Shown piece after piece: positions 6,756 to 11,673 of a DNA stretch of 38,792 nucleotides. The translations under genes were made by a program, and so were the position numbers. The stretch comes from Alphaproteobacteria bacterium (GTDB taxonomy: Bacteria > Pseudomonadota > Alphaproteobacteria > ATCC43930 > CGMCC-115725). The notes below the pieces were generated by a model. The model made no database searches. It worked only from the letters and a program-made list of their open reading frames with translations, and was not told the origin of the DNA. The stretch covers positions 1 through 38,792 of the forward strand of contig JASIAN010000290.1 of NCBI GenBank assembly GCA_030042035.1, given 5' to 3'. Positions within the stretch are counted from its first letter, which is position 1. Every line of letters begins with the position of its first letter.

Positions 6756-7640
6756 TTACGCCTGCCTGGCTTCGATGATCGAGCGGCGGATCGCGCGGGT
6801 GCGCGTGAACCATTCGTGCAAGGCCTCGCCATCGCCGCGGCGGATCGTGCGCTGCAGCGCGGTCAGGTCCTCGTTGAAGCGCTGCAACAGCTCCAGCACC
6901 GCCTCGCGATTACTAAGAAAAATGTCGCGCCACATGACCGGGTCGGAAGCCGCGATGCGGGTGAAGTCGCGGAAGCCGCCGGCCGAATAGGCGACGACCT
7001 CGGATTGCAGATCCTGGCCCAATTCGGTTGCGGTGCCGACGATCGTATAGGCGATCAGGTGCGGCAGATGCGAGGTCACCGCCAGTACCTTGTCGTGATG
7101 GTCGGCCGCCATCGTCGCGACCCGCATGCCCGCCATCTCCCACAACGCCGCGATCCTTGCGACGGCTGCAGGGGCCGTTTCCGGCAGCGGCGTCAGGATG
7201 CACCAGCGGTCGCGGAACAGGTCGGCAAAGCCCGCTTCGGGACCGGAATGCTCGGTGCCGGCGACCGGATGGCCGGGGACGAAATGCACGCGCTTCGGCA
7301 AGGTCGGCTGAAGCGCCGCGATCGCCGCTCCCTTGACCGAGCCGACATCGGTAACGATCGCGCCGTCCTCGAGCGCCGGCGCGATGCGGCGGGCAACTTC
7401 GGCATAGGCCGACAGCGGGGTTGCGATGACGACGAGATCGGCGCCCGCAACCGCGGCCGCCGCATCGTCCGTCGTCGCGTCGGCGAGGGCGAGCCGCTTG
7501 ACCGTCGCGAGCGTCTCGGCCCGGCGGGCGCAGGCGACGATGCGGGTCTCGGGGCTGTCGCGCCGCAGCACGCGGGCGAGCGAGGAGCCGATCAGCCCGA
7601 ACCCGATGATCGCGACGCGTTGAAACAACACCCCGCGCAT
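6756..7640 (-). CDS. tyrC: Prephenate/arogenate (cyclohexadienyl) dehydrogenase
   Basis: A 294-residue NAD(P)-dependent TyrA-family enzyme of tyrosine synthesis, oxidising prephenate or arogenate. The N-terminal Rossmann motif is IIGFGLIGSSLAR. TDVGSVKG and the HPVAGTEHSGP segment carry the conserved His and substrate-contact residues, and TSHLPHLIAY, YSAGGFRDFTRIA and the PVMWRDIF motif of the helical domain follow. No ACT or chorismate mutase domain is attached. The ATG at 7640-7638 shares one base with the TGA of the upstream aminotransferase gene (TGATG), indicating translational coupling. The open frame extends further upstream, but that part is a shadow of the aminotransferase. It is the third gene of the chorismate mutase-aminotransferase-dehydrogenase operon. 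Whether prephenate or arogenate is preferred cannot be read from the sequence. Confidence 0.93.
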   Translation of the reverse strand: MRGVLFQRVAIIGFGLIGSSLARVLRRDSPETRIVACARRAETLATVKRLALADATTDDAAAAVAGADLVVIATPLSAYAEVARRIAPALEDGAIVTDVGSVKGAAIAALQPTLPKRVHFVPGHPVAGTEHSGPEAGFADLFRDRWCILTPLPETAPAAVARIAALWEMAGMRVATMAADHHDKVLAVTSHLPHLIAYTIVGTATELGQDLQSEVVAYSAGGFRDFTRIAASDPVMWRDIFLSNREAVLELLQRFNEDLTALQRTIRRGDGEALHEWFTRTRAIRRSIIEARQA

Positions 7641-8743
7641 CACCGCGCCATGAACTCGGCCACGGCGGCGGCGACGATCTCCATTTCCTCGCCGGTGCCG
7701 ATCGTCATGCGCAAATGCTGCGGCAGGCCGTAGGCGCCCATCTTGCGGGTCAGGATGCCGCGGGCATGCAGGAAGTCGTGCGCCGCCTCGGCATTGTGCC
7801 GGGCATCGTCGGGAAACCGCGGCAACACGAAATTGCCGACGCTCGGCGTCAATTCGAGACCGAGCGCCGCGAGCTTTTCGGATAGCCACGGCTGCCAGCG
7901 GTCGTTGTGGGCGCGGGCGCGCGCCACCGCCTCGGTATCTTCGACCGCGGCGACACCGGCGGCGAGCGCGGCAGACGACACGTTGAACGGGCCGCGGATG
8001 CGGTTCAGCACGTCGGCGATGGCCGGCGGGCAATAGGCCCAGCCGAGCCGCAAGCCGGCGAGCGCATAGATTTTCGAGAACGTGCGCAGCATGACGACAT
8101 TGTCGGCCTGGTTGACCAGCGCGATGCCCGCTTCGTAGTCGTTGCGGTTGACGAACTCGGCATAGGCGGCGTCGATCGCCAGCACGACATGGGACGGCAG
8201 CCCGGCATGCAGCCGCGCCATCTCGCCGGCCGAAATATACGTGCCTGTCGGGTTGTTCGGGTTGGCGACGAAGACGAGCCTTGTGTTGTCGGTGATCCGC
8301 GCGAGAAAGCCGTCGACATCGGTCGTCAATGCGCGCTCCGGCACCGCGATGGGCCGCGCGCCGACCGCCTGCGCGCCGATCGGGTACATCAAGAAGCCGT
8401 GCCGGCTGTACAGCACTTCGGCGCCCTCGCCATGGGCATAGCCGCGCAGCAGGAGCGAGATCAATTCATCAGAGCCGGCGCCGCAGACGATGCGCTCGGG
8501 ATCGAGGTTGTGACAGCGGCCGAGCACCTGGCGCAATTCGGCCGCGGTGCCGTCGGGGTAGCGATGGATGTCCTGCGCCAGCGCGCGATAGGCGGCGACG
8601 GCCTTGGGGCTCGGGCCGAGCGCGCTTTCGTTGGAGGCGAGGCGAATCGGCCGGGTTCCCGGCGGCGCCCGCGATTCGCCGCCGATATAGGGCGAAATGT
8701 CAAGGATACCCGGTCCGGGGGCCGGGGCGGGTCCGCTCGTCAT
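7640..8743 (-). CDS. hisC: Histidinol-phosphate/aromatic aminotransferase
   Basis: A 367-residue class-I/II PLP aminotransferase of the HisC type. Its place between chorismate mutase and prephenate dehydrogenase suggests its main task is transamination in phenylalanine/tyrosine synthesis, possibly also histidine synthesis. Visible motifs are IRLASNESALGPSP near the N-terminus, IVCGAGSDELI, VFVANPNNPTGTY, the Asp/Tyr pair in LAIDAAYAEF, and the PLP lysine Lys224 in TFSKIYALAGLRLGW, plus RGPFNVSS and the C-terminal LRMTIGT with the carboxylate-binding Arg. I chose the ATG at 8743-8741, four bases after the upstream stop; the frame continues upstream but only as a shadow. Many alphaproteobacteria carry a second, histidine-operon hisC elsewhere, so this copy could equally be named hisC2. 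Confidence 0.92.
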   Translation of the reverse strand: MTSGPAPAPGPGILDISPYIGGESRAPPGTRPIRLASNESALGPSPKAVAAYRALAQDIHRYPDGTAAELRQVLGRCHNLDPERIVCGAGSDELISLLLRGYAHGEGAEVLYSRHGFLMYPIGAQAVGARPIAVPERALTTDVDGFLARITDNTRLVFVANPNNPTGTYISAGEMARLHAGLPSHVVLAIDAAYAEFVNRNDYEAGIALVNQADNVVMLRTFSKIYALAGLRLGWAYCPPAIADVLNRIRGPFNVSSAALAAGVAAVEDTEAVARARAHNDRWQPWLSEKLAALGLELTPSVGNFVLPRFPDDARHNAEAAHDFLHARGILTRKMGAYGLPQHLRMTIGTGEEMEIVAAAVAEFMAR

Positions 8744-8747
8744 CGCA

Positions 8748-9665
8748 TCAGTCTCTTGCTGCCGTCGCGGCGGCCGGCGCCGCCGGGCCGGGGGCCTGCA
8801 GTGTTGCCAGGTCGGCCGGCGACAACGGCACCGCATAGCCGCCGAACCGCACCAGTCGCGTCAGCGCCGGGCCAAGCTGGGCGCGCAGCCGCTCGAGCCG
8901 CGGGTCGGAAGCGGCGACAAACCCGTCGATCTCGATCAGCGTGTTGGCGCCGTCGGCAAATTCGGAAGACGCCATGAAGGTGCACGCAAGGCCGAGACCC
9001 GCCAGCGTCGAGAAGATGCGGCCGCGGCTGATATCGAGGGTGTTCTCGGCGGCAAAGAAGCTGCGGTCGCGGCCGGTCGGGAGCTGCGCGCCATGCCCGA
9101 TCGCCAGCCCGTTGGCGCCGTCACCGCGCGCGTTGCCGCGGGCGCCAAACGGCAACCGTGCGACGACGCGCGGCGCATCCTCGTTGTCCCACAAGAGATG
9201 CCGCCACCAGGGGTCGCGCTCTTCCTCCTCGGGCATCGGCAGCACACCGACCGAAGCCTGGCCCTCTGTCACCGCCCGGATCACCTGCGCAGTGGAGCCG
9301 AACGCCAGCATCGGCGTCTGGCTGCCGTAATGGTCGCGCGCCAAATCCCAAAAGCCGTGCGCGTCCGGCGGCGCGTAGACCGCGATCGTGAAAGCGCCCT
9401 GCATCCGCGTCGCGGCAGCCAACAGTTCGCGCCACATGCGCACCAGCGTCGCCGCCGGCAGCGGCCCGCGATTGCGCCCGACCAGCCGGCGGATGATCTC
9501 GGCTTCGCGCGCCGGCTGGTGCGGCGCCAGCGCGCCGTTTGAGCGCTTGTGCGCGGCGATGCGCGATACGACATCCAGGCGTTCGATCAACAGGTCATGC
9601 AGCCGGTCGTCGATCTCGTCGATGCGGCGGCGCAACTGTTCGAGATCGTACGGGATATCTGCCAT
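8748..9665 (-). CDS. AroQ chorismate mutase with reduced prephenate dehydratase-like and ACT-like tail
   Basis: A 305-residue protein. Residues 1-85 are an AroQ chorismate mutase converting chorismate to prephenate; residues expected in the active site are visible as Arg12, Arg29, Lys40, Arg53 and Glu54. Residues about 95-160 resemble only one lobe of a prephenate dehydratase (AFGSTAQVIRAVTEGQASVGVLPM). The region from about 200 on looks ACT-like (GRIFSTLAGLGLACTF, then DPRLERLRAQLG, ending FGGYAVPL). The second dehydratase lobe and its catalytic Thr-Arg-Phe are not seen, so dehydratase activity is unlikely and the tail is more likely regulatory or structural. It is the first gene of the hisC-tyrC operon and is divergent from metX. 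Chorismate mutase is a firm call; the tail interpretation is inference from pattern matching. Confidence 0.85.
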   Translation of the reverse strand: MADIPYDLEQLRRRIDEIDDRLHDLLIERLDVVSRIAAHKRSNGALAPHQPAREAEIIRRLVGRNRGPLPAATLVRMWRELLAAATRMQGAFTIAVYAPPDAHGFWDLARDHYGSQTPMLAFGSTAQVIRAVTEGQASVGVLPMPEEEERDPWWRHLLWDNEDAPRVVARLPFGARGNARGDGANGLAIGHGAQLPTGRDRSFFAAENTLDISRGRIFSTLAGLGLACTFMASSEFADGANTLIEIDGFVAASDPRLERLRAQLGPALTRLVRFGGYAVPLSPADLATLQAPGPAAPAAATAARD

Positions 9666-9799
9666 GTTCGGGATCGCTGCCAGGGGCCGCTAGTAGTAAG
9701 GTTCTGCTTTGGCAAAATCAAAGAAAACGTTGACATGCCTCACCTGCGATCCCTAGCTAGGCCGCCCGGCGAACCGGCTGACCCAGCGCAGAGCGCCCC
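9666..9799. promoter_or_regulatory. Divergent control region between the chorismate mutase operon and metX
   Basis: This 134-base space must hold both promoters. On the minus strand a possible -35 TTGATT (9721-9716) is 17 bases from TACTAC (9698-9693). On the plus strand TTGACA (9730-9735) is a perfect -35, but the matching -10 (around 9753-9759, CTAGCTA) is poor. I looked for a SAM-II or SAM-V riboswitch, often found before metX in alphaproteobacteria, and found no matching core. These boxes are eyeballed only. Confidence 0.3.
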
Positions 9800-10972
9800 T
9801 TGTCGATCCTGACCGTTCCCCGTCTCCGGCGTTCCGGGCGCGACTGGCCCGGCCACCGGCTCGTCGTCGCGGACGAATTGCCGCTCGATTGCGGCGCCGC
9901 CCTCGGGCCGTTCACGATCGCCTACCAGACCTACGGGCGATTGAACCCGGAGCGCAGCAACGCGATCCTTGTCTGCCACGCGCTGACCGGCGATCAGTAC
10001 GTCGCCGATCCGCATCCGATCACCGGCCATCCCGGCTGGTGGACGACGCTGGCGGGACCCGGCGGCGTGCTCGACACCGAACGCTATTTCCTCATTTGCG
10101 CGAATGTGCTCGGCGGCTGCATGGGCACCACCGGCCCGCGCGAGATCAATGCCGCGACGGGCGAAGCCTGGGCGCTCGATTTCCCGGTCATCACGATCCA
10201 CGACATAGTGCGGGCGCAGAAGCTCCTGGTCGACCGGCTCGGCATTGAGGAGTTGTTCTGCGTCATCGGCGGCTCGATGGGCGGCATGCAGGTGCTGCAA
10301 TGGGCGTCGAGCTATCCCGACCGTGTCTTTGCCGCGGTGCCGATCGCCGCGGCGGCGCGCCATTCGGCGCAGAACATCGCGTTTCACGAGGTCGGCCGGC
10401 AGGCGATCATGGCCGATCCCGACTGGTGCGGCGGGCGCTATCTGAAGGAAGGGCGCAACCCGTCGCGCGGGCTGGCGGTCGCGCGCATGGCGGCGCATAT
10501 CACCTACCTGTCGGAAGCGGCGCTCCACCGCAAGTTCGGCCGCAATCTGCAGGACCGCAACCAGATCACCTATGGCTTCGACGCCGATTTCCAGGTGGAA
10601 AGCTATCTGCGCCACCAGGGCAGCACGTTTGTCGACCGGTTCGACGCCAATTCCTATCTCTACATCACGCGGGCGATGGATTATTTCGACCTTGCGGCCG
10701 AGCATGGCGGCTCGCTGCCCGCCGCGTTTGCACGCCGCCAGCCGCGCTTCTGCATCATCTCGTTCACCAGCGACTGGCTGTTCCCGACCTCGGAAAGCCG
10801 GGCGCTGGTGCATGCGCTGAACGCCGTGGCCGCCAATGTCAGCTTTGTCGAGATCGAGACCGACAAGGGGCACGACGCGTTCCTGCTGCACGAACCCGAG
10901 CTGTTTGCGACGCTGCGCGGTTTCCTGACCGGCTGCGCCGAGCAGCGCGGGCTGCCGCGTTTCTGGACATGA
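9800..10972 (+). CDS. metX: Homoserine O-acetyltransferase
   Basis: A 390-residue alpha/beta-hydrolase-fold enzyme that acylates the hydroxyl of homoserine (acetyl or succinyl donor) in methionine synthesis. The nucleophile is Ser159 in GGSMGGMQ, and the triad is completed by Asp325 (SDWLFP) and His358 (KGHDAF). [16 protein letters not shown] and the HPGWW loop before LDT are family signatures. The start is TTG at 9800, because an in-frame TGA lies at 9779-9781 and no ATG or GTG falls between. The stop overlaps the metW start (ATGA). Several alphaproteobacterial MetX enzymes use succinyl-CoA, so the donor is not settled by sequence reading alone. Confidence 0.95.
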
Positions 10973-11673
10973 GAACCGCCGCCGCGCTGCGTCTTGCGGC
11001 CGACGCGCCGCCCGAAGCGGCGCCCGCGCCCGGCGAATTGCGGAGCGACCTGCGGCTCATCGCCGACATGATTGATCCGAATTCGCGGGTCCTCGACATC
11101 GGCTGCGGCGACGGCGCGCTCTTGGCTTATCTGGCGCGCGACAAGGCGGTCGATGCGCGCGGCATCGAACTCTCGCAGTCCGGCGTCAACGCCTGCGTGC
11201 GGCATGGCCTGTCGGTCATCCAGGGCGACGCCGACCGCGATCTCGACGCCTTTCCCGACGGCGCCTTCGATGTCGTCGTGCTGAGCCAGACGCTGCAGGC
11301 GACGCGGCAGCCGCGGCATGTGCTGGAGGCGCTGCTGCGCATCGGCGAGCGGGCGATCGTCTCGTTCCCCAATTTCGGCTTTTGGCGCATCCGCCTGTCG
11401 CTCTTGTGTCGCGGCCGCATGCCGATGTCGCCGCTGCTCAATAACCCGTGGTACGACACGCCCAACATCCACCTCTGCACGATCCGCGATTTTGTCGCGC
11501 TATGCGACGAATTGGGCGCGCGCATCGAGCGCAGCCTGAGCCTTGACCGGCACGGCCGGACGATCGCGCTCGATCCCCGCGGCAGCCTCGCAAACCTCTT
11601 CGCCGAGCAGGGCATCTTCGTGCTGGCGGCGGGCGTCGCAGCCGCGTCGGGGAAGCGGAGAATGGCACGATGA
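10969..11673 (+). CDS. metW: MetW, methionine biosynthesis partner of MetX
   Basis: A 234-residue class I SAM-dependent methyltransferase-like protein. MetW accompanies MetX in many proteobacteria and is reported to support its activity. Visible features are the SAM-binding motif [13 protein letters not shown] (about residues 40-52), [31 protein letters not shown], and the MetW-typical [17 protein letters not shown] and [18 protein letters not shown]. The ATG at 10969 overlaps the metX stop by four bases (ATGA) and its own stop overlaps the next gene the same way, so the three genes are translationally coupled. The N-terminal 30 residues (alanine/proline-rich) are slightly longer than in many MetW proteins. 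Confidence 0.93.

Follow-up and report, generated by a model that had tools for sequence, protein, structure and literature searches.

The locus studied lies in a window of 38,792 nucleotides (the whole stretch of alphaproteobacterial DNA that was analysed) and comprises a three-gene run on the minus strand, the first product of which divides into several recognisable segments:

8748..9665, minus strand: whole gene, AroQ chorismate mutase (CM) with a truncated prephenate dehydratase (PDT)-ACT tail, 305 aa (from the ORF and its relatives)
9399..9644, minus strand: CM domain, residues 8-89, with R12, R29, K40, R53, E54, and Q89 present
9093..9389, minus strand: equivalent of PDT lobe I, residues 93-191 (from profile alignment and model)
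9111..9149, minus strand: short loop in place of PDT lobe II, residues 173-185
8820..9071, minus strand: ACT-like domain, residues 199-282, lacking the Phe-binding motifs GALV and ESRP
7640..8743, minus strand: hisC-type aminotransferase, starting 4 bases past the CM stop codon
6756..7640, minus strand: prephenate/arogenate dehydrogenase, tyrA type, its start overlapping the hisC stop codon

The first gene reads from 9665 to 8748 with an ATG start and no internal stops. Residues 11-89 matched Pfam CM_2 (PF01817) with 65.3 bits against a curated cut-off of 27 (E 5.7e-18), and all six core catalytic positions are filled, their E. coli CM counterparts being R11, R28, K39, R51, E52, and Q88. These residues are nearly constant across 70 relatives, position 89 being either Q or E. 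The closest NCBI model was CM_P2 (65.8 bits; cut-off, 69.55). Pfam matches to TilS (E 0.0023) and FliT overlapped the CM helices below cut-off and were taken as chance. The N-terminal AroQ domain is thus intact, as stated in a preliminary description of the gene, and is predicted from its sequence to convert chorismate to prephenate.

The gene order is widely shared. Among 74 assessable named loci, hisC directly follows the family gene in 72 (70 by script plus two by reading rows); it also does so at 44 of another 49 loci. At two loci (L075 and L098) tyrA follows the family gene, with no hisC detected between or after them. metX is divergent from the family operon in 58 of the 74 named loci; in the window, metX and metW lie within positions 9666-11673, divergent from the operon, an arrangement conserved in most named loci. 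An Rfam search near the operon returned two subthreshold matches, judged to be chance, and no match to an attenuator or SAM riboswitch model; the gap of ~134 bases toward metX thus carries no SAM riboswitch match.

Searched as a single sequence, the tail gave no significant PDT or ACT match in Pfam and PDB; PF00800 reached only 11.4 bits against a cut-off of 25.2 (E 0.28) and covered residues 109-144 alone. Because this left the tail unsettled, relatives were collected and aligned as a profile (70 members). Compared with 54 PDT-ACT proteins by hhalign, the tail profile gave a match (P 2.5e-6, score 49) that ran colinearly over nearly the whole length, starting in lobe I and reaching the ACT terminus, whereas reversed-profile controls scored 14.5 and 16.1. 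With close relatives only, the profile-profile match was short and weak (Prob 38), and it became colinear when diverse members were added. When the family HMM was run on full CM-PDT-ACT proteins of other classes, the alignment ran gap-free from CM into PDT as far as ENS and picked up again at the strand after TRF, continuing through ACT; the stretch skipped was lobe II. The lobe I equivalent follows the order strand-helix-strand-helix-strand, short helix, strand, and then the strand that in PDT comes after TRF, and includes W106/A109-R110-D111, W153-W154, and R170-L171-P172-F173.

The catalytic motifs were not found in these alignments. At the ENS site the protein reads P-E-E, and in place of TRF it has A184-N185-G186, with the equivalent columns of the family varied (mostly L/R/A, then D/E, then A). 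The preliminary description, which had proposed a lobe-like PDT stretch and an ACT-like end lacking the TRF catalytic region, was accurate on each of these points. Since lobe II, ENS, and TRF are all gone, the tail as read from its alignment cannot be a PDT of known kind, and lobe I plus ACT would be unable to dehydrate prephenate.

The AlphaFold model of the protein, built from the 70-sequence alignment (pLDDT 93, pTM 0.88), shows three CM helices followed by the PDT lobe I elements and a full ACT fold. In the model of the PDT encoded by this genome, lobe II spans residues 92-168 and comprises nine elements; none has a counterpart in the window protein, where the short loop stands instead. 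In a Foldseek search against the PDB, the 15 best matches were all prephenate dehydratases, the first being 7ALZ (E 2.1e-9). This entry is GqqA, a Komagataeibacter PDT from which proteolysis removed residues 86-170 in the crystal; its authors report an otherwise preserved fold (0.76 A) with L-Phe still bound (PMC8192741). When the model of the intact host PDT was searched in the same way, 7ALZ came only 11th, beneath intact PDTs. Because a PDT deprived of lobe II by proteolysis is the top structural match, we take evolution to have cut the protein at that very subdomain border, the cut product being a known stable fold.

The modelled ACT domain has the beta-alpha-beta-beta-alpha-beta order (strands 200-209, 228-236, 239-247, and 268-278; helices 214-223 and 255-267), and none of the 70 family members has a Pfam ACT match. 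In PheA, the Phe-binding motifs of the ACT domain are named GALV and ESRP. Across the 70 members, the GALV-equivalent columns are mostly S-R-x-R-L and the ESRP-equivalent columns are unconserved, and no folded segment of the family varies more than ACT. In eight divergent members (L225, L231, L234, L235, L236, L237, L242, and L244) ACT helix 1 and the next strand are absent or shortened; the divergent members with a shrunken ACT mostly keep the WW and LP positions. These features bear on the earlier proposal that Phe might regulate a monofunctional CM, with the kept ACT still binding Phe and thereby inhibiting CM. Such feedback would fit the ACT fold kept in the model and the Phe still bound in the crystal by a PDT stripped of lobe II (PMC8192741), but most of the 70 members have other residues at the positions equivalent to GALV and ESRP, helix 1 is missing or reduced in several divergent ones, and ACT is the least conserved of the folded parts. 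We therefore consider Phe feedback unlikely.

The separate pheA raised in the preliminary description was found on another contig. It is the single PF00800 match in the genome and encodes a 298-residue PheA with NTTRF and ACT, scoring 464.9 bits against PRK11899 (cut-off, 359). PF01817 also matched once, at the window gene, and PF07736 (CM_1) gave no match in the genome; because the assembly is a draft, 94% complete and in 351 contigs, the window gene is to be read as the only CM detected.

Across 61 related genomes, 48 match the window protein and 51 have a PDT; judged by the contig positions of the CM and PDT matches, no CM-PDT fusion was found in any of the 61. Contig searches of the genomes with the single protein as the query gave no match, and the relatives were found with the alignment as the query. 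Of 387 genomes sampled across the class, 288 match, ~230 of them with E < 1e-20 (counted from the listed rows), the weaker matches probably being single-domain CMs. The same architecture occurs in many genera and named isolates, e.g., Azospirillum, Skermanella, and Nitrospirillum. A strain-specific deletion, a frameshift, or an assembly error affecting a normal P-protein might be suspected in a draft as fragmented as this one, but that recurrence already refutes it, and a normal PheA is present besides, leaving such an artefact virtually no probability. The architecture is that of an old, class-wide alphaproteobacterial family, not a strain defect. This also qualifies the earlier suggestion of a bifunctional PheA that lost its second activity: the loss is supported, whereas a recent event confined to this organism is not.

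The tail does not look like obvious junk. Seventeen columns are invariant in the 70 divergent members, seven of which are in the tail (P145, W153, W154, L171, P172, D200, and G275). Between close relatives, pN/pS for lobe I and ACT, as a simple count and not a tested model, is ~0.3 to 0.7, near the value for the CM domain, and silent changes exceed replacements in the tail as they do in CM. Were the tail an idle relic, tolerated and drifting, its variable and in places shortened ACT would be expected; its invariant positions, its CM-like pN/pS, and its retention across the class all speak against this, and we regard it as quite improbable.

In one member, L228 (G044:C13:35310-36095), the CM-site equivalents of R12, K40, R53, and E54 are lost while lobe I, WW, ACT, and the place before hisC-tyrA are kept; this genome has a second CM (one case).

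The CM domain also carries a signal of descent. In the CM tree, the family forms one clade (87/97) adjoining a P-protein CM of a different class (88/80), and the family together with 13 P-protein CM domains (97/91) lies apart from the single-domain alphaproteobacterial CMs. The tree spans just 90 columns and is weak at its deep forks; it was weighed alongside synteny and the uninterrupted CM/PDT junction. Across the wider phylum, complete CM-PDT-ACT genes immediately precede hisC (eight loci) or tyrA (four loci). One locus outside the class, L202 (G470:C26), has a full CM-PDT-ACT gene beside tyrA, with a CM closer to the alphaproteobacterial family than any other found. The tree grouping and the neighbourhood together point to descent of the CM domain from P-proteins, with moderate tree support. 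Because the gene sits in the hisC-tyrA slot of full CM-PDT-ACT genes and its CM groups with theirs, we identify the protein, with high confidence, as a P-protein relic.

The literature holds that alphaproteobacteria lost the CM-PDT-ACT fusion; the present data indicate that the fusion gene was hollowed out, not lost, and still stands at its ancestral place. A library search of non-subscription literature turned up no description of this architecture as a P-protein deleted for lobe II. An origin can thereby be proposed for a family filed as "hypothetical protein," and the CM of many alphaproteobacteria would be identified.

The architecture, the missing active site, the family breadth, the operon, the separate PheA, and the CM kinship with P-proteins were all read from sequence or model, and on them we build the following proposal. 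Within the fusion gene, an alphaproteobacterial ancestor would have lost PDT lobe II and TRF but retained lobe I and ACT. The AroQ domain would supply prephenate to the HisC/TyrA pair encoded downstream and to the separate PheA encoded elsewhere. Lobe I and ACT may now pair two subunits through ACT, and the tail may adjust or stabilise the CM domain, possibly in response to some regulatory ligand. Because it was kept across much of the alphaproteobacteria, the remnant probably has a noncatalytic job, e.g., regulation or assembly, and a remodelled P-protein whose remnant serves as a noncatalytic module pairing subunits and adjusting or stabilising CM is the account we think likely.

What kind of job this would be is less clear, and we see the chances of a regulatory rather than a purely structural role as evenly balanced. 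The absence of the Phe motifs and the erosion of ACT in several lineages count in favour of a structural role rather than allostery. On a purely structural or assembly reading, the tail would hold the CM dimer or dock HisC, TyrA, or another pathway enzyme, with no small ligand involved. The conserved operon with hisC and tyrA is consistent with this, as is the fact that the most constant tail positions are the seven listed above and not the ACT ligand motifs, some members keeping the WW/LP core while ACT shrinks. Yet most members, the window protein included, have a complete ACT fold, more than a clamp needs, and we hold this reading to be possible but somewhat doubtful. The more specific version of the remodelled P-protein, in which the class kept a P-protein with its dehydratase half cleanly deleted and the rest became a new control or docking module for CM, with a non-Phe ligand or a partner, is put forward tentatively, at a little under even chances. 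This version takes in at least one genome, G044, that has lost the CM site while the tail persists beside a second CM. Control of a branch-point enzyme from which the Phe-regulated catalytic half has gone becomes directly testable.

Among known systems, the nearest in organisation is the P-protein (AroQ-PheA) of beta- and gammaproteobacteria, which shares with the window protein the domain order, the gap-free CM/lobe I junction, the ACT end, the CM_P2-type CM domain, and the place before hisC or tyrA. Unlike the P-protein, the window protein is without PDT lobe II, ENS, TRF, and the Phe-binding ACT motifs, and, as the preliminary description had remarked, it is short, with 305 aa compared to the ~358- to 427-aa open frames of full CM-PDT-ACT fusions. 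The genome's own monofunctional PDT-ACT (C119:3017-3544, L001) shares lobe I and the ACT fold with it but has lobe II, ENS, and NTTRF and no CM domain. Proteolysed GqqA (7ALZ), like the window protein, consists of lobe I and ACT without lobe II; in contrast, it is a fragment produced in the laboratory from a monofunctional PDT, lacks a CM domain, and has Phe bound.

NCBIfam PRK06034 (NF004695-NF004698) carries the name "hypothetical protein," and all 70 family members match all four of its models, the similarity between PRK06034 and the window protein extending past the CM domain. The scores of the window protein are below the respective cut-offs (115.2 versus 349, 105.4 versus 355, 102.1 versus 311, and 94.6 versus 413 bits for the four models). 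Caulobacter vibrioides matches NF004695, and one control genome, most likely this one, was above the cut-off. From these scores, the window protein is a homologous but divergent branch, outside the curated PRK06034 equivalogs.
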